Assembly (NCBI GenBank): GCA_944392255.1
Contig: CALXVY010000017.1
Span: 1 to 35,140 of the forward strand
Reading direction: 5' to 3'
Length of the DNA: 35,140 nt
Origin: an uncultured Alphaproteobacteria bacterium
GTDB taxonomy: Bacteria > Pseudomonadota > Alphaproteobacteria > RF32 > CAG-239
Position 1 is the first letter of the stretch. Every line of letters begins with the position of its first letter. Positions 9,155 to 18,684 of the stretch are shown here, piece by piece. The notes under the pieces are model-generated. The model made no database searches. It saw only the letters and a program-made list of their open reading frames with translations, and was not told the DNA's origin. Made by a program: the position numbers and the translations under genes.

Positions 9155-9164
9155 ATTATCAAAA

Positions 9165-9183
9165 ATGGTGCCGCTGGCAAGAA
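9165..9183. repeat. attL: distal copy of the integration site
   Basis: ATGGTGCCGCTGGCAAGAA is identical to 16400-16418, which covers the 3' end of tRNA-Thr including its CCA. After one mismatch the next three bases also match (CGG). It lies 135 nt upstream of the integrase start. Confidence 0.88.
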
Positions 9184-9218
9184 GCGGCACTGGTACATGT
9201 GGTTCCAATTCTATATCT

Positions 9219-9247
9219 TTGAAAGGATTGAAAATATTGACTATTTA
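9219..9247 (+). promoter_or_regulatory. Putative integrase promoter
   Basis: TTGAAA (9219-9224), a 17-nt spacer and TATTTA (9242-9247). The 13-bp-period repeats at 9258-9289 lie directly downstream, between promoter and gene, so an integrase bound there could repress its own transcription (inference). Confidence 0.45.
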
Positions 9248-9257
9248 GCGAATCGGT

Positions 9258-9289
9258 AGTACATAAATTAGGTACAAACTATCGGTACA
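9258..9289 (+). repeat. Left arm-type repeats, three copies at 13-bp period
   Basis: AGTACA (9258), GGTACA (9271) and GGTACA (9284) recur at exactly 13 bp. A further GGTACA at 9192 lies beside attL, out of this phase. The same arrangement occurs at the right end (16317-16348). Position and symmetry fit integrase arm-type binding sites. Confidence 0.7.
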
Positions 9290-9317
9290 TGGTATTTTTT
9301 TTCAGAAGGAGTCGCTA

Positions 9318-11057
9318 ATGGTAACAAAAGTCCCTAATTATGTAGGTTTATATAGAACAACAACTGGTATATATATTATTAGAATAGCAGCCCCTAAAGA
9401 GCTCAGAAACAGCAGAAAGCAAGTAACAAGAGAGATTAAGCGTTCTTTAAAAACAAGAGATTGGGAAACAGCTAAAGCGGCATATCATGAGTTTATGAGA
9501 AATATCAATTTAGAAGTGGTTAATTGCAGGACTAAGCCATCTAGCGACCCATATCCTATAGATAAATTTAGGCTGGATGTTTTAGAAAAAGCTTATGATT
9601 ATTTTTATCAGTATAGCGAATACCTTATTCCTCAATTTTTACAGCAGATGACTTCTTCTTTTGATGACGGAAGAGAGCGTGCGGCTTCTATGGTTTTTGT
9701 CAAAAACTATATTAATGATAACATCAGAGCTCTTTCAGTAGAGTTAAACTCCAATGTATATTCAACCCAAAGCCATCAAATGGTAAAGAATTTTCTAAGT
9801 GGAAGATACAGCTTATCTCCAGACCAAGAAGAAATGGCTCTTAAGACCTTTGTAAAAGCCAAGCTGGAAGCTTTATTACATTATCAAGCAATCAATATAG
9901 ATTTTGAAAAGACAAAAGAAAGTTATAGTTATCGTTTCCCCATTATCAAAGAAGCTATAGAACATCACAAAAACTATGTCGCTTCTAAATTGAGAAAAAC
10001 TTCTAATAATCCAAAGAGTACCAGATTAGAGGATGTATTTTTGCGCTGGAGTAAAGAAGCAACCGGCATAGCTGAAAAGATTGCTAAAGTTAAGTCATTT
10101 ATAACAATTTTTCCAGAAAAGGATGACTTAAGTCAGATTAAAAGTAGTGATATTTGCGAGTGGAAAGAGATTTTAACTCAGCTTCCAGCCGGATATACTT
10201 TAAAAAAACAGTTCAAGGGTAAAAGCATTGAAGAAATCATAGAGATGGCAGATGAAAATGATTTATCAAGAATGAAAAAAATAACAATAAACGGCTATTT
10301 GGTTGCATTTTCGGTCTTTTATAAATGGGCAAAAAATAAAAATTTGGTTGGAGATAATGCCGTTAATCCGACTAAAGATATGCTTTATTCTAAGAAAGAA
10401 ACAGAGGCGGAAGCCGATAAACCAAAGGCATTTACACCTGAAAGCGTAAAAGTCTTTATAGATTATTGCAAAAAGCATTACAAAAACCAAGTTCCTGAGT
10501 TCTTTTGGTCTTCTATGATAATGCTATATTGTGGTTTGCGTCAAAAAGAGGCTTCTCAGCTCCTTATATCTGATATACAGACAAGAGATGGCTTGAGCTA
10601 TATTAGAGTACAAGCTGGTGATTCTCAAACTAAATCAGTTAAAAATAAGCACTCAATAAGGAGTATTCCAATACATCAGCAACTCATAGATTGGGGCTTT
10701 CTAGAATATGTAGAACAACGAAAGAAAGCATCCAGCAGTACAGATAGATTATTTCCAAGTATTATAATGAATGATAAAGGGAACGGGGAAAGATTCTCGG
10801 CTTCAAAATATCATAATAAGTATTTTAGCAAACTATTAGAGGATGTTAATCTCTCAGGACAAGGCTATAGTTCTTATTCTCTGCGCCATACATTTACAGA
10901 CTTTTTGAGAAGAGCCGGATATTCTGATGATGATATTTCATATGTTGTGGGTCATAGCTCACAAAATACCATGACATCTCATTATGGAGATTTTCATGAA
11001 ACGCCAACAAGGTTTTTAGAAAAAGCCAAAGCGATGATAGATATGGTTCAATATTAA
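9318..11057 (+). CDS. int: Tyrosine recombinase / integrase
   Basis: A 579-aa site-specific recombinase that would catalyse integration and excision at tRNA-Thr. The N-terminus (GLYRTTTGIYIIRIAAPKEL, then IKRSLKTRDWETAKAAY) resembles the short arm-binding-type domain common in large proteobacterial integrases (DUF6538-like). A core-binding SAM-like region covers about 235-345 and the catalytic domain about 370-579. Catalytic residues: Arg408 in CGLRQKEA, Lys near 444, Arg523 in YSLRHTF (the usual preceding His is Tyr520), His546 in VVGHSS, and nucleophile Tyr556 in SHYGD. AAGGAG lies 8 nt before the ATG. It sits next to attL and is followed 28 nt later by the Rep-like gene, probably in one transcript. 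Confidence 0.93.
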   Translation: MVTKVPNYVGLYRTTTGIYIIRIAAPKELRNSRKQVTREIKRSLKTRDWETAKAAYHEFMRNINLEVVNCRTKPSSDPYPIDKFRLDVLEKAYDYFYQYSEYLIPQFLQQMTSSFDDGRERAASMVFVKNYINDNIRALSVELNSNVYSTQSHQMVKNFLSGRYSLSPDQEEMALKTFVKAKLEALLHYQAINIDFEKTKESYSYRFPIIKEAIEHHKNYVASKLRKTSNNPKSTRLEDVFLRWSKEATGIAEKIAKVKSFITIFPEKDDLSQIKSSDICEWKEILTQLPAGYTLKKQFKGKSIEEIIEMADENDLSRMKKITINGYLVAFSVFYKWAKNKNLVGDNAVNPTKDMLYSKKETEAEADKPKAFTPESVKVFIDYCKKHYKNQVPEFFWSSMIMLYCGLRQKEASQLLISDIQTRDGLSYIRVQAGDSQTKSVKNKHSIRSIPIHQQLIDWGFLEYVEQRKKASSSTDRLFPSIIMNDKGNGERFSASKYHNKYFSKLLEDVNLSGQGYSSYSLRHTFTDFLRRAGYSDDDISYVVGHSSQNTMTSHYGDFHETPTRFLEKAKAMIDMVQY

Positions 11058-11085
11058 AAACATGCAAAAAAGGAGGAAAATTTCC

Positions 11086-12042
11086 ATGAAAGTAGTATCA
11101 CCTACAATCGCTCAATACGGCGGTCTATGGAGCTTAGCGGTTATTGAAGCAGGTAAAAAAGATTGTACCCCCTCTTTAGTATTAATAGATAGTATTAGAA
11201 GATATAGAAATATATTAAATAAGAAGAGTAAGACAAAAGAGGAAGAAGAGTTTATTAATACCCATAAAGAGTATTATGAGAATTTAAGAAAGCCTAAGTC
11301 ATGGAGATTGTTAACGGTAGAAGAGAAGCTAGACTTTTGCGCCGATTATGCTTTTAATCAAGCAATAAAAATGCCTTATGTTATTAAACAGTCTTGTCGT
11401 AATAAAAATTTGCTGGATATAAGCGTTAGAACTTATGATTTTGGCGATTATATAATAAAAGCTCAAGATGGAAGCGGAAAAGAGACACCTTTAAGGTCTT
11501 TAGCTTCTTTTGATTGTTGTGCGGTTACGCTTCAACTTGATAAAAAATTGATTGAGAATATTAAGACTAAGGGCAAAGGAAAGTATGCTGACTATGTCAG
11601 ACGGGTTATTTTTGATAAGCCATTGAGACAATTATCTAAGATATTCGGCAGAAAAATAAACTATACTTTTGTAGTTGAGAATAACAAAAACAATCCTGAG
11701 TTTCTACATATCCACGGAATATTTGACTTTACAGCAGAAGAACTGTCTTTAAAAATCAGAGATAGCGAAAGAAAAGTGATTGAAAATATTTTTCTAGAAG
11801 GTGTTTTAGGGAAAGAATATAACTCTCATCCTTTGGTTAAGACGGCAGTTGAAATAGATATGATTCACCATCCATTAGGTTGGGCAGATTATATGAGTAA
11901 AGACATAGATAATAGAGATAGGATTTATATTTCGCGTAAAGTTTTGCAAGAGGGAGCTATGCTTTATAATGAATATAGAAATGAGGTCATATCTTTAAAC
12001 GAAACATTATCGAACTTAAAGCGAAGTCCTAGAAAAGCTTAA
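11086..12042 (+). CDS. HUH-type Rep/nickase-like protein
   Basis: A 318-aa protein (an upstream ATG at 11062 is rejected because the strong AGGAGG site at 11071-11076 serves the ATG at 11086). It shows the three-part signature of HUH endonucleases: a hydrophobic strand FDCCAVTLQLD (about 142-152) as motif 1, LHIHGIF with His208 and His210 as the metal-binding HUH motif, and ADYMSKDI with Tyr269 and Lys272 as the YxxK catalytic motif. HUH enzymes nick one strand and form a 5'-phosphotyrosine link to start rolling-circle replication or transfer. The single Tyr suggests a replication initiator rather than a Y2 phage-type Rep. It follows the integrase and precedes the hairpin-rich region, a natural candidate for its origin. 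Function is inferred from motifs. Confidence 0.72.
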   Translation: MKVVSPTIAQYGGLWSLAVIEAGKKDCTPSLVLIDSIRRYRNILNKKSKTKEEEEFINTHKEYYENLRKPKSWRLLTVEEKLDFCADYAFNQAIKMPYVIKQSCRNKNLLDISVRTYDFGDYIIKAQDGSGKETPLRSLASFDCCAVTLQLDKKLIENIKTKGKGKYADYVRRVIFDKPLRQLSKIFGRKINYTFVVENNKNNPEFLHIHGIFDFTAEELSLKIRDSERKVIENIFLEGVLGKEYNSHPLVKTAVEIDMIHHPLGWADYMSKDIDNRDRIYISRKVLQEGAMLYNEYRNEVISLNETLSNLKRSPRKA

Positions 12043-12060
12043 ATAATATAAAGCCCTTGT

Positions 12061-12457
12061 TATATTCCTTGGTGCTGGAATATACCGGAAGTCCTTATAG
12101 TTAGGCTTCCTGTTTTTCTAACTATAAGACAAAGTGTTTTTAAGGATTAGAGCTTTTTCCTTTTAAAAACAAGGACATCCTTGAGGAAATATAAAAATAA
12201 TGAGTTTTCAATGGCTTGTATAAGGATTATGCTTTGGCGCTGGGTGGCTGTAATCTTGCTTTTTTTATGCGTTTTAAACGCGATTTTAAAGCCGTACAGA
12301 GGTTTTTGAGAAGCTTTGCTAATTCCCCTCTTATAAAGCTTGATTTGTTGAATGATGCGGCTCTTTTGAGCTTAATTTTTCTGAAAAAATTGCTTGTAAA
12401 TAAAGTTTGATTTGTTAAACTCAAACTGAATATTGCTCCTTCGAAAAGAGTAATATT
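12061..12457 (+). other. Array of strong hairpins in a non-coding region
   Basis: At least six inverted repeats are packed here: TATATTCC/GGAATATA (12061-12084), CTTATAGTTAG/CTAACTATAAG (12094-12128, 11 bp perfect), TGTTTTTAA..GGA with TCC..TTAAAAACA (12135-12171), AAGCTTT/AAAGCTT (12311-12341), AGTTTGA/TCAAACT (12404-12427), and AATATTGCTC/GAGTAATATT (12429-12457, 10 bp with one G-U). GGAAG/CTTCC (12087-12110), followed by T5, overlaps the 11-bp hairpin, so the two are mutually exclusive, like an attenuator. No frame here has an ATG with a ribosome site. It could be part of a large structured RNA or a replication origin. Confidence 0.6.
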
Positions 12458-12459
12458 TA

Positions 12460-12607
12460 GGGCGTCAGAAACCCTTATATAGAAGCAGTCGTGTGCACAC
12501 GACTTAAAATATCGTGCCGACTTCTGTCATGGACGGATGTCGGTGAATAAGGCTATGTGCTGAATAAGCCGAGCCGTTGCTTCTATACGGTTTCTGAACA
12601 TCCGCCC
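12460..12607 (+). ncRNA. Cloverleaf-like multi-arm structured RNA or cruciform DNA
   Basis: A closing stem forms from three consecutive blocks: GGGCG (12460-12464) with CGCCC (12603-12607), TCAGAAACC (12465-12473) with GGTTTCTGA (12589-12597), and TATAGAAGCA (12478-12487) with TGCTTCTATA (12578-12587). Inside are three arms: a perfect 18-nt palindrome AGTCGTGTGCACACGACT (12487-12504), a CCGAC..GTCGG hairpin with an inner CTGTC/GACGG stem (about 12517-12543), and GGCT/AGCC (about 12551-12569). An intrinsic terminator follows at once. I do not recognise an Rfam family. It may be a non-coding RNA or the Rep nicking origin. Confidence 0.6.
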
Positions 12608-12637
12608 GCCTTTGGTCAAAAGAGCGGGTTTTGTTTT
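12605..12637 (+). terminator. Intrinsic terminator after the structured region
   Basis: CCCGC (12605-12609) pairs with GCGGG (12624-12628), followed by TTTTGTTTT. It overlaps the 3' strand of the cloverleaf closing stem, so formation of the two may compete. Confidence 0.75.
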
Positions 12638-12664
12638 AATCATTAAACTAGGATGTGAAATCGT

Positions 12665-13861
12665 ATGAAAATAATCTTTTTTCTTCTTATATTATACGGA
12701 ATATTAAAGACTTTGTTTGAATATTGTCCAGTTGGAACATCCATTGGTGTTTTGTTATTTATTTGTTTACTTATATATCTTAAAGTAGATTCAATAGTAA
12801 AACAAAAACAGAGAACTCAAGAAAATCTTGAAAAAGAGAAGCTAAAAAAAATACAAAAGTATGACTTATTGTTAAAATATAAGCAAGATTCTTCAAAATT
12901 GATTAAAGAATTATATAAAAATGTAATCTTTCTTGTCTTACAAAATTTTAAAACGTTAGATATTAAATATCGTCAAAACGTTTTTAAGGATGATTATGGA
13001 AATGATACCCTAGATGCTTGGAATAAAGAAATTTCGTATTTTGTAGAAAAAGTGTTATTAGATAGACTTCCACGTCTTATGAAGGAGATGAACGGAACTT
13101 TTCTTCTTTTTTGTTCTGATATTCAGATGACTTTTACCTTTCCTCAAAAGGTAGATATAAATAATATAGATAAATATACTACTTGCTTTGAATTTAATTT
13201 TATCAGCAAAGACAAACAGGTAGTAAAAATGACCAAAAAATATATAGAAAGTCATATGGATGCTATGAATTTATGGGATATTGAATCTATCATAGAGACA
13301 ATACAAAATTGGTCAAAATTTAATTCAAATCCTCAAAAATATATAAAAAGTAAAGGAGCAGATTTTAGTCATAAAGCTTTAAAATTATTAAGTGATAGGG
13401 AAATCTTTGTTATAAATTATAATTTTTTAACCCAAAAAGAAAGTTTAGTTAAAATTGTTAATGATATATATATGCAAATTAAAGACCATGTTTTTTCTAG
13501 TGCTGATAACTTGAATATTTCAAACATTTCTCCCTATGATTTTGAAAAAAAGTGTGCTGAAATTTTGCAGAAAATGAGTTATGAAGTGCAAGTTACAAAG
13601 GGAAGTGGAGACCAAGGTGTAGATGTTATAGCGCAAAAAAAACATAAAGTTATTGCAATTCAATGTAAAAAGTATACCAAACCGGTTGGAAATAAAGCCG
13701 TTCAAGAAGTAATAGCTGGCAAGGATTATTATGGAGCCGATTATGCTGTGGTTGTGAGCAATGCTTCATATACACCTGCCGCCAGAAAATTAGCAAGCAA
13801 ATGTAATGTCCTGCTATTAAATATAAAACAATTAGAGTTTCTAGATGATTATTTACATTAG
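12665..13861 (+). CDS. Membrane-anchored Mrr-type restriction endonuclease
   Basis: A 398-aa protein with two predicted N-terminal membrane helices (about 2-19 and 24-40), a charged coiled segment (about 44-80), an unrecognised central region, and a C-terminal PD-(D/E)xK nuclease domain of the Mrr/DUF2034 type (about 288-398). Catalytic signature: YDFEKKCAEIL, then GDQGVDVIA with Asp316/Asp320, and IQCKKY with the Gln333-x-Lys335 pair. Mrr-type enzymes cut modified or otherwise marked foreign DNA. Membrane anchoring suggests action at the envelope, perhaps on entering DNA. The start has AGGAT 10 nt upstream. It lies behind a terminator, so it needs its own promoter or readthrough. The nuclease domain is secure; the defence role is inferred. 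Confidence 0.82.
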   Translation: MKIIFFLLILYGILKTLFEYCPVGTSIGVLLFICLLIYLKVDSIVKQKQRTQENLEKEKLKKIQKYDLLLKYKQDSSKLIKELYKNVIFLVLQNFKTLDIKYRQNVFKDDYGNDTLDAWNKEISYFVEKVLLDRLPRLMKEMNGTFLLFCSDIQMTFTFPQKVDINNIDKYTTCFEFNFISKDKQVVKMTKKYIESHMDAMNLWDIESIIETIQNWSKFNSNPQKYIKSKGADFSHKALKLLSDREIFVINYNFLTQKESLVKIVNDIYMQIKDHVFSSADNLNISNISPYDFEKKCAEILQKMSYEVQVTKGSGDQGVDVIAQKKHKVIAIQCKKYTKPVGNKAVQEVIAGKDYYGADYAVVVSNASYTPAARKLASKCNVLLLNIKQLEFLDDYLH

Positions 13862-13925
13862 AAGATTGTATATTTCTTTAAGATTCATGTCAAAACCAAC
13901 TACACTCTGATTTGACATCAAAAAA

Positions 13926-14015
13926 GTGTAAAAAGTAAGTGGAATATCCTTGGCTTTTTACACCTGTAAAGTATAATCTATAATATAGTTTATACAGATA
14001 GATTCGTTTTACAGG
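13926..14015 (+). promoter_or_regulatory. Dyad-rich promoter or res-like site of the serine recombinase
   Basis: GTGTAAAAAG (13926-13935) and CTTTTTACAC (13954-13963) form a perfect 10-bp inverted repeat. CCTGTAAA (13963-13970) and TTTACAGG (14008-14015) form a second, whose right half overlaps the AGGAG ribosome site. A promoter TTGGCT (13950-13955), 16-nt spacer, TATAAT (13972-13977) lies between them. Such nested dyads upstream of a resolvase gene fit recombinase crossover sites that also control its own expression (inference). Confidence 0.5.
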
Positions 14016-14024
14016 AGAAACAAG

Positions 14025-14576
14025 ATGATTTTCAATTATATCAGAGTAAGTACAGCTTTACAAAATATAGATAGACAGTTGGTCGGTATTGCTTGCGATA
14101 GAGAATATATGGACAAGCTATCCGGTAAAGATACAAATAGACCTCAACTTCAAGCCATGATTGATAATCTAAGAGAGGGAGATATTGTTAATGTCCACTC
14201 AATGGATAGACTTGCTCGTAATGTTCAAGACCTTTTAGCTTTGATTGATACAATAATTAATAAAGGCGCAAAGATAAAATTCCATAAAGAAAACCTAACT
14301 TTTGAAGCAAATAAGAAAACAGATGCTTTTCAAAAGCTCATGTTAACCTTATTAGGGGCTGTATCTGAATTTGAAAGAGAGATAATCTTAGAAAGACAAA
14401 GAGAAGGAATTGCTATAGCAAAGCAAAAGGGCAAGTATAAGGGTGGACAGAAAAAGCTATCAGAAGAACAAATAAAAGAAATCAAGGCGCAGGTAGAAGA
14501 AAACAAGCTGCCTATAACTGAAATAGCCAGACAATACAAAATTACTCGTCAGACGGTTTATAATCTGATTAGATAA
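14025..14576 (+). CDS. Serine recombinase (resolvase/invertase family)
   Basis: A 183-aa small serine recombinase. The catalytic domain carries Ser9 in YIRVST with Arg7, the MDRLARN block (about 65-71), a long E-helix (MLTLLGAVSEFEREIILERQREG), and a C-terminal helix-turn-helix (ITEIARQYKITRQTVYNLIR, 164-183). Enzymes of this size resolve cointegrates or multimers, or invert DNA. AGGAG precedes the ATG. The upstream dyads may be its target. It converges with the ATPase gene, three bases apart. With a Rep-like protein on the same element, multimer resolution after replication is a reasonable job (inference). Confidence 0.9.
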   Translation: MIFNYIRVSTALQNIDRQLVGIACDREYMDKLSGKDTNRPQLQAMIDNLREGDIVNVHSMDRLARNVQDLLALIDTIINKGAKIKFHKENLTFEANKKTDAFQKLMLTLLGAVSEFEREIILERQREGIAIAKQKGKYKGGQKKLSEEQIKEIKAQVEENKLPITEIARQYKITRQTVYNLIR

Positions 14577-14579
14577 TGT

Positions 14580-16151
14580 CTATTTTCTTTTTCTTTTTGC
14601 AAATAAAGGATGTAATATAAATACTATATCGTCATCAAAATCTAATTGAGATAGTTTGGGTTTATCGGCATTTGAATATAGTATTGTTCCGTCAGGAAAT
14701 TCTATTCCAATAACGCCAATAATAAATAATGTATTAATTAAATTTTTAATATTTACATTAACACAATTATTATCATTTATTTTGCATTCTAAAAAAGAAA
14801 CAATAAGAGGGTCATCTTGATTTTCGATATTTGAATTTAATAGCGTGTCAAGTAATGTTTTATAGTTTTCAAAAATATACTCATAATCAAAACGATTGCC
14901 CATTGACCTAATAGCTTTAATGTAACATTCAACATTGGGGTATAAGGTATACCATTCATGTTTTAATGCTGATAATCTCTCATCACAATACAGCTTCTCA
15001 GCATTAACTATATTTAACGGGGTTATATGCGTTTCCCCATCAGCTTGTTTAATACATAAATTTACAAAACTAATTACGTCTCGAGGGCGCATCATGGTTC
15101 TTTCAAGTATATAATTGTAACCTTCTGTTTCTGAAATAAAACAGTTAAAAATATGCTTAAACGAGACTTTTGTGTTTTTCTTATATTTAAATTCAAACAA
15201 ATATTGTAATCTTCTATCAATTAAGCTAGTTAGAGTATCTTTGCTCCAATTCAGTTTTATTGTATATGATTCATCCTTTTCATTTTGTCGATTTGAAGCT
15301 TCAACAGTTTTTGAGAGTAAATCATTTCTCATTGCTATTAAAATCTTAACATTTGGAATGCCTATAAAAAAACGGATTGTGTCTAAGAGTGAATTAATAA
15401 GTTTGTATTTAGATTCATCATCTGTCCAATTTTCATCAAGGTTATCAATAGTTACCAAAATTTTTTTCTGCTTATTATGTTCAAAGTATTCTTTTAAAAT
15501 GGAAATTAAATTCTTAAGTTGGTTTATTTGAGTTTTACTAACATATTGACTTGTTTTGGCTTGTATTTCTCTTTTTTGAGATTCCGTTAAAGAACTTGCA
15601 ATTTTTGCAAAATTTGTAAATCCCATTTCAGATTCTAACTTTGCTTCTAGTTGATTGGTGATTTTTTCTTTAGTTCCTTCTGCAAAAAAGACATCATCAT
15701 ACTGTTTGACATAATTTTTTAGTTGTCTAATGCGGTCAGCATCGTTACTAAATCCGCATAATTCTACTAAATAGTTCTTATTATAGTAGTTAAAATAATT
15801 TTTAACAATATTAGATACAATCTCATGTAGCCATAAGAATTTATAAAATACTTCAAGGTTGATTTTTTCTTCTTTAAGTTGCCTTATGAAAGGGACATTG
15901 TCGATATATTGTAATACAAAAATATTGGGTTTTATATCTACTACAACATCAGCTTCTTCTTTTGCTTTATTAAGAAGAGCCGTTTTTCCAGCTCCGGTTC
16001 GTCCAAGAATTATCATTTTTCTATTATCATAATCTTTTATCTCTTGGTATTCAGGAGTTTTTATAAAACAAGTATCAAGAAAAAATTGGTCTGCCTCGGC
16101 GCTTAAATTTCCAATTTCCATATCTCTGCGAAATACAATATCATCAGCCAT
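14580..16151 (-). CDS. P-loop ATPase, Sll1717/KAP-like
   Basis: A 523-aa soluble ATPase. Walker A is GRTGAGKT (50-57) and Walker B is ILVTIDNLDE (231-240, Asp236 and the acidic DE), followed by NVKILIAMRNDLL as a sensor-like strand and an arginine-rich MMRPRDVISFVN block (about 355) like the lid of KAP/STAND-type ATPases. The layout resembles the Sll1717-family P-loop proteins. Related ATPases are found in defence and mobile-element cargo. The C-terminal 150 residues look like a helical and winged-helix region. GAAGGATT lies about 8 nt before the ATG. No partner effector is fused to it; the nearby Mrr-type nuclease is the obvious candidate. Family by eye. Confidence 0.7.
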   Translation of the reverse strand: MADDIVFRRDMEIGNLSAEADQFFLDTCFIKTPEYQEIKDYDNRKMIILGRTGAGKTALLNKAKEEADVVVDIKPNIFVLQYIDNVPFIRQLKEEKINLEVFYKFLWLHEIVSNIVKNYFNYYNKNYLVELCGFSNDADRIRQLKNYVKQYDDVFFAEGTKEKITNQLEAKLESEMGFTNFAKIASSLTESQKREIQAKTSQYVSKTQINQLKNLISILKEYFEHNKQKKILVTIDNLDENWTDDESKYKLINSLLDTIRFFIGIPNVKILIAMRNDLLSKTVEASNRQNEKDESYTIKLNWSKDTLTSLIDRRLQYLFEFKYKKNTKVSFKHIFNCFISETEGYNYILERTMMRPRDVISFVNLCIKQADGETHITPLNIVNAEKLYCDERLSALKHEWYTLYPNVECYIKAIRSMGNRFDYEYIFENYKTLLDTLLNSNIENQDDPLIVSFLECKINDNNCVNVNIKNLINTLFIIGVIGIEFPDGTILYSNADKPKLSQLDFDDDIVFILHPLFAKRKRK

Positions 16152-16261
16152 GTTATGAATCCTTCAAAATTACTTCTATCGATGATACTAACAAAAAAAG
16201 AAATAATAAAGCAAAAAAAATTATTGGTGTATAATTTTTAACGCGATAAACCAATAGATGT

Positions 16262-16301
16262 AAAAGGCGTTAATCAAGCAGTTTATAATCTAATGAAATA
16301 A
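16262..16301 (+). pseudogene. Possible tail of a second serine recombinase
   Basis: One frame reads KGVNQAVYNLMK followed by a stop, which resembles the end of the intact recombinase (ITRQTVYNLIR, stop). The shared DNA includes GTTTATAATCT. No further coding sequence is visible upstream. It may be debris from an earlier recombinase gene or a duplication. The match is short, so chance is possible. Confidence 0.3.
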
Positions 16302-16316
16302 AGATGATTAAAAAAA

Positions 16317-16348
16317 GGTACACAGATTAGGTACAAAAACTAGGTACA
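16317..16348 (+). repeat. Right arm-type repeats, three copies at 13-bp period
   Basis: GGTACA begins at 16317, 16330 and 16343, exactly 13 bp apart, in the same orientation as the left set. In the excised circle the two sets would flank the joined att site. Confidence 0.72.
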
Positions 16349-16350
16349 GA

Positions 16351-16382
16351 AACAAAAAACGCGACTTTGTAAGTCGCTGTTT
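16351..16382. terminator. Element-borne bidirectional terminator for tRNA-Thr
   Basis: GCGACTT (16361-16367) and AAGTCGC (16371-16377) form a 7-bp stem, with an A run on the left and a T run on the right, so it can work in both directions. It lies about 25 nt beyond the tRNA-Thr 3' end and replaces the terminator displaced to 9132-9154. Confidence 0.75.
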
Positions 16383-16399
16383 TTGCATGATTTTTTAAG

Positions 16400-16418
16400 A
16401 TGGTGCCGCTGGCAAGAA
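16400..16418. repeat. attR: tRNA-proximal copy of the integration site
   Basis: Identical to 9165-9183. It covers the acceptor and T-arm 3' strand plus the CCA of tRNA-Thr, so the tRNA stays intact at this end. Confidence 0.88.
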
Positions 16419-16475
16419 TCGGACTTGCGACCCCGTCATTACCAATGACGTGCTCTACCACTGAGCTACAGCGGC
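16401..16475 (-). tRNA. thrT: tRNA-Thr (anticodon GGU), 75 nt with encoded CCA
   Basis: On the minus strand the acceptor GCCGCTG (5' end at 16475) pairs with CAGCGGC, followed by ACCA. The D arm contains GCTCAGTGGTAGAGC. The anticodon stem is CGTCA/TGACG with loop TTGGTAA, giving anticodon GGT (16441-16443) for ACC/ACU codons. The T arm contains GCAAGTCCGATTCTTGC. It is the integration target of the element. Confidence 0.95.
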
Positions 16476-17784: not shown

Positions 17785-18684
17785 ATGAATTGCGGGAAGA
17801 TTCAACAAGGCTATTGTCTAGCCTTTGGCAAGAAAGTGAGCTTTCTTCGCCGTAAAGGTTTTTGTCCATGTTCCAATGCCTTCGGATGGAATGGTAATGG
17901 CTATTTGGATGAAAATGACGAGCCAGTACAAAAACGTCAGGCATCGTCAGACGAAGATGGGTTCTTAGATGAAACCAAAGCGCATGATTATGAAGAATAT
18001 CATGCAGCGGAGGAACGTCGTTATCAAGAAGAATGTGAACGTAAAGAAGCTGAAGATGCTGCTAAGGCGCTTTATGAACCTGAGCCAGAACCTGAAACTG
18101 AGCCAGAACCTGAGCCAGAACCTGAGCCAGAACCTGAAACTGAGCCAGAACCGAACGAAGATTATCAAGACCAAGATAATCAATACCTTGGAGAAAATCC
18201 ATGGGACAATGATGACGATCAGAAAGGGTTGTTTGATGACGACAATGATGACGATCAGAAAGGGTTGTTTGATGACGACAATGATGACGATCAGAAAGGG
18301 TTGTTTGATGACGACAATGATGACGATCAGAAAGGGTTGTTTGATGACGACGATGATGACGATCAGAAAGGGTTGTTTGATGACGACAACGATGACGATC
18401 AGAAAGGGTTGTTTGATGACGACAACGATGATGATCAGAAAGGGTTGTTTGATGATGACGATGATGATCAGAAAGGGTTGTTTGATGATGACGATGATGA
18501 TCAGAAAGGGTTGTTTGATGATGACGATGATGACAACAATCATCAAGATCATGATGATCAATATCAGGATGATAATCGTGATGATGAGTATGATTATGAT
18601 CAAGATTATGATGATACTCCCGATGATGACGATTATGATGATGCTCCCGATGACGACGATGATGACGATGACTATGGCTGGTAA
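17785..18684 (+). CDS. Very acidic tandem-repeat protein
   Basis: A 299-aa protein in three parts. Residues 1-45 carry four Cys (3, 11, 27, 29) and basic residues and could bind metal or form a small folded head. About 95-125 is a Glu-Pro repeat. From about 143 there are nine tandem copies of a 12- or 11-residue unit, DDDQKGLFDDDN, then an Asp/His/Asn tail ending DDDYGW. No membrane segment or export signal is clear. QKGLF in every unit fits the loose QxxLF pattern of sliding-clamp-binding peptides. No good ribosome site is visible and there is no other internal Met, but a strong promoter precedes it and a strong terminator follows. Function unknown; probably intrinsically disordered. Confidence 0.7.
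   Translation: MNCGKIQQGYCLAFGKKVSFLRRKGFCPCSNAFGWNGNGYLDENDEPVQKRQASSDEDGFLDETKAHDYEEYHAAEERRYQEECERKEAEDAAKALYEPEPEPETEPEPEPEPEPEPETEPEPNEDYQDQDNQYLGENPWDNDDDQKGLFDDDNDDDQKGLFDDDNDDDQKGLFDDDNDDDQKGLFDDDDDDDQKGLFDDDNDDDQKGLFDDDNDDDQKGLFDDDDDDQKGLFDDDDDDQKGLFDDDDDDNNHQDHDDQYQDDNRDDEYDYDQDYDDTPDDDDYDDAPDDDDDDDDYGW
18211..18525 (+). repeat. Coding tandem repeat: six 36-bp then three 33-bp units
   Basis: Each unit contains the core CAGAAAGGGTTGTTTGATGA flanked by GAT/GAC codons. Units 1-6 are 36 bp and units 7-9 are 33 bp, all in frame. Synonymous GAT/GAC changes mark units of different age: the last three use GAT-rich spelling. Confidence 0.95.

Follow-up and report, generated by a model that had tools for sequence, protein, structure and literature searches.

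We propose that the structured region directly upstream of an Mrr-family nuclease gene in the window (the whole stretch of DNA analysed, 35,140 nt) is a C4-type antisense leader RNA of ~200 nt, a variant form that has come to serve envelope and defence genes; from sequence comparison we put the probability of this reading at about 0.8. The computed support consists of a conserved structure, a position 5' of genes, antisense complementarity, and homology to sRNA-Xcc1 that includes common upstream strands. Relative to C4, the new aspects would be a long pseudoknotted 5' domain, a terminator, a high copy number, envelope targets, and an account of sRNA-Xcc1, a widespread Rfam family for which we found no stated mechanism in the literature searched. 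Such RNAs are present in almost every genome of one gut bacterial family, before genes for lipoproteins, autotransporters, pilin-like proteins, and a membrane-anchored nuclease. This family-wide placement before surface-protein genes points to a regulatory device of phage origin that was co-opted to govern the cell surface. The features concerned are as follows.

9155-16422, no strand: integrative element, 7.2 kb, in a tRNA-Thr gene (direct repeats, tRNA, Pfam)
12043-12424, no strand: spacer from Rep-like gene to leader, with chance-level hairpins (fold z -0.8)
12426-12460, +: 5' hairpin P0 (inverted repeat 12426-12441/12445-12460)
12458-12632, +: conserved leader RNA core (covariance model R1, 179 bits)
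12465-12473, +: strand A5' (UCAGAAACC), partner 12589-12597
12478-12487, +: strand X5' (UAUAGAAGCA), partner 12578-12587
12487-12517, +: P2 hairpin and pseudoknot (stem 12487-12491/12500-12504; loop 12495-12498 with 12514-12517)
12531-12615, +: predicted C4/sRNA-Xcc1-like mature antisense RNA domain (full-length RF02221 match; opens with GGA)
12531-12607, +: helix B, counterpart of C4 P1 (12531-12540/12598-12607), enclosing P4 and P5
12540-12543/12569-12572, +: P4, within helix B
12573-12577/12587-12591, +: P5, within helix B
12584-12603, +: bipartite antisense strand (UAUACGGUUUC and ACAUCC), -20.1 kcal/mol duplex with the downstream ribosome-binding site (RBS)
12605-12637, +: intrinsic terminator, a covarying stem whose 5' arm is shared with the 3' end of helix B
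12651-12667, +: target GGATGTGAAATCGTATG, running from the Shine-Dalgarno to the start codon and able to pair with the antisense strand
12665-13861, +: Mrr-family restriction endonuclease, the putative controlled gene (PF04471 Mrr_cat, E 1.5e-28)

Extent of the structured RNA

The sequence-only reading had described the 622 nt from 12043 to 12664 as a hairpin-packed non-coding region. Folded as RNA this stretch gave a z of -6.3, and 12425-12637 alone lay far below the chance level (z -7.5). The hairpins of 12043-12424, singled out in that reading, proved unexceptional: on its own this part folded to -85.2 kcal/mol vs -81.3 +/- 5.0 kcal/mol in dinucleotide shuffles (z -0.8, with coding controls at -0.15 and -0.08), and in the related copy L032 the corresponding upstream stretch showed no sequence conservation. 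Since the 5' part is at the level of shuffles and unconserved in L032, the natural unit is about 12426-12637. This 3' part is a real structured RNA, with covariation, a terminator, and many homologues; a structured RNA is thus supported, while the size of ~600 nt is not, as the conserved RNA measures only about 200 nt. The target of the unit extends to the start codon at 12665. Within it we recovered the three-block closing stem that had been described (12460-12464/12603-12607, 12465-12473/12589-12597, and 12478-12487/12578-12587), the three arms inside that stem, and the intrinsic terminator, whose 12605-12609/12624-12628 stem is followed by TTTTGTTTT.

The spacer may be the site of the leader promoter, with TTGTAA (-35) and TAAACT (-10) as weak candidate boxes. 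Upstream of the leader, -10-like boxes were found within 20-34 nt in 42 of 62 copies vs 12 expected, and the score of the window copy scarcely exceeded that of shuffled sequence, making it a poor promoter. A hairpin of at least 6 bp occupies the P0 position in 87% of copies vs 10% of shuffles, and P0 probably lies near the transcript start. The spacer also holds two 20-nt direct repeats (ATAAAGYTTGATTTGTTRAA; 12333-12352 and 12400-12419, 67 nt apart), possibly promoter or Rep-binding repeats.

Covariation in the leader

Covariation among homologues, which the sequence-only reading had named as a check on its RNA, was strong both in 58 copies and in a second set of 61 copies left out of model building. 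In the 58 copies, 19 pairs contributed 232 cells changed on both sides, and the covariation score (0.252, vs 0.108 for shuffled and <=0.062 for slid alignments) exceeded all 500 shuffles and all slid versions. The strongest columns in this set belonged to helices X and A, P2 with its loop pseudoknot, P5, and the terminator. The main block of helix X had both-side changes at all 8 pairs, and this helix gave 200 double-change cells in the 61 new copies; helix A was paired in 98.5% of cells, with double changes at 3 pairs. The loop pair 12498-12514 was one of the strongest covarying pairs, and the terminator pair 12608-12625 appeared as G-C, A-U, or G-U across copies. Double changes were seen again in the 61 independent copies for the pseudoknot and P5, both of which lie outside the model.

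Helix B was nearly invariant with few double changes, and because it varies so little its support is mostly conservation together with those few changes. As A crosses B and X crosses P5, either pseudoknots or alternative states are implied. We place no weight on the alternative helix 12517-12521/12539-12543 and the outer stem 12460-12464/12603-12607, which pair well with almost no double changes.

Complementarity to the start of the downstream gene

The predicted duplex between the antisense strand and its target in the window (-20.1 kcal/mol) was the strongest of 109, spanning Shine-Dalgarno to start codon. Duplex energies were -13.6 kcal/mol for leaders with their own genes and -12.1 kcal/mol for swapped leader pairs (0/20,000), vs -7.2 +/- 2.5 kcal/mol with 392 other genes. 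Within the host family, the longest complement was likewise greater for own than for swapped pairs (0/20,000 permutations), a within-family test that may be inflated by RBS sequences common by descent among related leaders; complements of at least 8 nt occurred in 37.6% of own pairs vs 0.9% with the strand reversed. With start codons picked by a rule favouring a Shine-Dalgarno, GGAYGT was present at the gene start of 47 of 58 leader genes vs 23 of 804 other genes. Variants of strand and target co-vary, e.g., TTTTCTAAC with GTTAGAAAA, CGAACATCC with GGATGTTCG, and TTCTGAACA with TGTTCAGAA. That swapped pairs lie above background is what cross-regulation between copies would require, and relatedness predicts the same. 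At distant sRNA-Xcc1 loci the 3' strand also matched the RBS of the next gene better in own (6.27 nt) than in swapped pairs (4.91 nt; 0/20,000), examples being GTCTTGTTGC/GCAACAAGAC and CTTGTGTC/GACACAAG.

Homology to sRNA-Xcc1 and resemblance to C4

An Rfam search of the window at cut-off returned no family except a tRNA outside the RNA. Below cut-off, RF02221 (sRNA-Xcc1) matched 12531-12615 over its full length with 29.4 bits (E 0.005 in a 0.7-kb search); the gathering cut-off of 53 bits is missed by this copy and by the relatives searched (<=46.7 bits). Nearly every copy aligned to the complete model (positions 1-87), in agreement with the consensus structure. Matches above cut-off were present in 39 of 398 genomes of the phylum, and at 42 distant sRNA-Xcc1 places the upstream strand complemented its own 3' strand over 8.17 nt vs 5.59 nt when swapped (0/20,000), which indicates that the A and X strands, left out by the Rfam model, are common to these loci. 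On these alignments sRNA-Xcc1 appears to be the 3' portion, about half, of a longer leader that carries a strand antisense to the start of the next gene, which would offer a testable mechanism for the family and tie it to the C4 immunity RNA.

In Xanthomonas (X. campestris) sRNA-Xcc1 is a discrete RNA of 88 nt (PMC2996969), and it has been found in integron cassettes and upstream of symE in Xanthomonas integrons (PMC12444791). Genes following the distant loci include those for Bro-N, KilA-N, P22_AR_N, and Rha antirepressor-type proteins and SymE. The leader and sRNA-Xcc1 have in common a closing stem with two inner stem-loops, and genuine sRNA-Xcc1 loci, too, lie 5' of a gene with a complementary RBS and have upstream A/X strands; in contrast, the Rfam model has neither the pseudoknotted 5' domain nor the downstream terminator, and the leader targets here are envelope or defence genes. 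The genuine loci in Proteobacteria (L117-L154) have conserved 5' strands and a mid-positioned U-rich terminator-like hairpin.

RNase P cleaves C4 at a GGW at the base of the first stem, and C4 binds the target RBS through two segments (PMC5320573). Like C4 of phages P1/P7 and the Acinetobacter Group 1 sRNAs, the leader has three stem-loops with a long closing first stem (P1-P3 in C4; here B, P4, and P5), GG(W) opening that first stem (by sequence, GGA at 12531), and two segments antisense to the RBS region of a downstream gene in the same transcript. It differs from C4 in its extra pseudoknotted 5' domain, in the conserved terminator before the gene, and in having no tie here to an antirepressor, the target in the window being the Mrr nuclease. 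The C4 sequence model is also weakly matched: RF01695 reached at best 25.1 bits at other copies vs a cut-off of 45, with no match at E<=10 at the window copy; 6 of 7 weak matches within the family fall on leader copies, at the same segment as 12531-12615.

The kinship to ROOL or GOLLD suggested by the sequence-only reading found no backing in the Rfam search, at cut-off or relaxed; a mobile-element setting and ornate folding are common to all three, but both classes are far larger than the leader RNA. A relaxed match to TD-2 (E 0.018) extends over the spacer, P0, and the initial bases of the core.

Distribution and downstream genes

A DNA search of 88 genomes with the whole region found one further match, in the same genome (91%), whereas the 3' 200 nt matched in 36 of the 88, often in several copies each. 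Model R1 placed the leader in 121 of 136 genomes of the host family, at 1-20 copies each and six in the host genome. Named genomes recovered by a pattern scan were mostly uncultured Alphaproteobacteria, many from gut or rumen (deer, sheep, yak, buffalo, and others). Exact-pattern matches in seven IMG/VR contigs were rejected, as they represent a recurring phage sequence in which R1 finds no leader, and the plasmids searched gave no match. A phage-collection record, MT836653.1, contains the leader and an autotransporter gene; this unannotated faecal scaffold is probably bacterial rather than phage.

A codirectional gene begins just 3' of the RNA in nearly all copies, with upstream genes that vary in kind and strand. 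In the independent set such a gene lay directly downstream in 52 of 61 copies, and a simple rule assigned a lipobox, signal peptide, or hydrophobic segment to the start of 39 of these 52 genes. The usual product is a lipoprotein, autotransporter, or other envelope protein; representatives include an autotransporter, a PEGA-domain lipoprotein, an OMP beta-barrel protein, and a pilin-like protein, as well as an EcoRI-type methylase and a sialyltransferase-family protein. No Pfam match was obtained for several lipoprotein families encoded downstream of leaders (L029, L031, L036, L061, and others), among them one with LNLLPGFGNFYLASGNGGD and another with CATVMRDNSQ... The Mrr nuclease of the window, described here as membrane-anchored, has a hydrophobic N-terminus, and its nuclease part has PADLOC matches to ZorD, PDC-S02, and mREase_IV.

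Proposed mechanism and alternatives

In the mechanism we propose, a promoter of its own just before P0 would drive the RNA codirectionally with the next gene. The transcript could then adopt alternative folds, in which either the 5' strands (A, X) hold the antisense strand or the C4-like domain (B, P4, P5) forms. The 3' half with B, P4, and P5 would probably be released by RNase P at the GG opening helix B (12531), and would be the part known to Rfam as sRNA-Xcc1. Pairing of 12584-12603 with the RBS and start codon at 12651-12667, in cis or in trans, would block translation, and the upstream strands 12465-12487 would compete for the antisense strand and keep it off its target; strand A5' is a possible internal decoy. 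The terminator between RNA and gene would provide a second control point. More tentatively, and at somewhat under even odds, a phage-type antisense immunity switch may have multiplied in gut Alphaproteobacteria and come to regulate envelope genes genome-wide, with copies cross-regulating in trans and the same architecture in all Proteobacteria sRNA-Xcc1 RNAs; in that case the mature RNAs would cross-regulate because the antisense strand and the targets are common to the copies.

A cis riboswitch or protein-responsive attenuator, i.e., a pseudoknotted RNA that senses a ligand to set terminator against read-through, with the RBS complementarity as a local sequestering helix, would suit the pseudoknots and the invariant internal-loop sequences (GAAUAAGG...AAUAAGCC), and a strong terminator directly before the gene, with a 5' arm common to helix B, fits it equally. 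We consider this rather improbable, however, given that the invariant blocks map onto the sRNA-Xcc1/C4-like domain, which in Xanthomonas is a discrete 88-nt RNA (PMC2996969), that the downstream genes have no common metabolic theme, and that what co-varies with the gene is a locus-specific antisense to its RBS. The sequence-only reading had given equal weight to a rolling-circle replication origin, and this or another single-strand DNA site of a Rep element would agree with the location, 0.4 kb beyond the gene for a Rep-like, HIH-motif protein, and with a sequence that also folds as DNA. But the leader is in 121 of 136 family genomes, usually away from Rep, and the Rep gene is in 6 of 152, Rep beside leader being the exception, so the leader is not a replication origin; with copies also lying 5' of chromosomal lipoprotein and autotransporter genes and bearing a covarying terminator with a U-run, we regard the idea as scarcely credible. 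An origin could still lie in the 400 nt that separate Rep from the leader.

It is very unlikely that the RNA is a free-standing trans-acting sRNA with its neighbouring genes there by chance: sRNA-Xcc1 is reportedly called a trans-acting sRNA in the title of Chen et al. 2011, and the leader has its own promoter-like sequence and terminator, but it lies at a fixed short distance from a codirectional gene and its RBS complementarity is specific to that gene. Hardly conceivable, too, is an attC-like recombination site of gene cassettes; sRNA-Xcc1 does occur in integron cassettes (PMC12444791) and the cargo genes vary, but the copies are mostly single rather than arrayed, and promoter, terminator, and RBS antisense play no role in attC sites.

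The integrative element and its Rep-like gene

The element carrying the window copy is bounded by 33-nt direct repeats (9155-9187 and 16390-16422) whose sequence duplicates the 3' end of the tRNA-Thr gene (16401-16475, minus strand); inner repeats of 31 nt (9259-9289 and 16318-16348) are possible integrase arm sites. Its cargo comprises a tyrosine integrase, the Rep-like gene, the leader, the Mrr gene, a serine recombinase, and a KAP-type NTPase, of which the Mrr nuclease, the recombinase, and the NTPase are possibly defence genes. The Rep-like protein (11062-12042) has an HIH motif and hardly any Pfam signal (REP_ORF2-G2P, E 0.075), and the viral contigs searched contained no such protein. 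Immediately 5' of another leader copy (G000:C16, L040; also L044) a distant relative of this protein is encoded. Elsewhere in the window, the ORF at 17785-18684 (299 aa) is built mostly of acidic repeats (DDDDQKGLFDD...), and the opposite strand also has long open frames.
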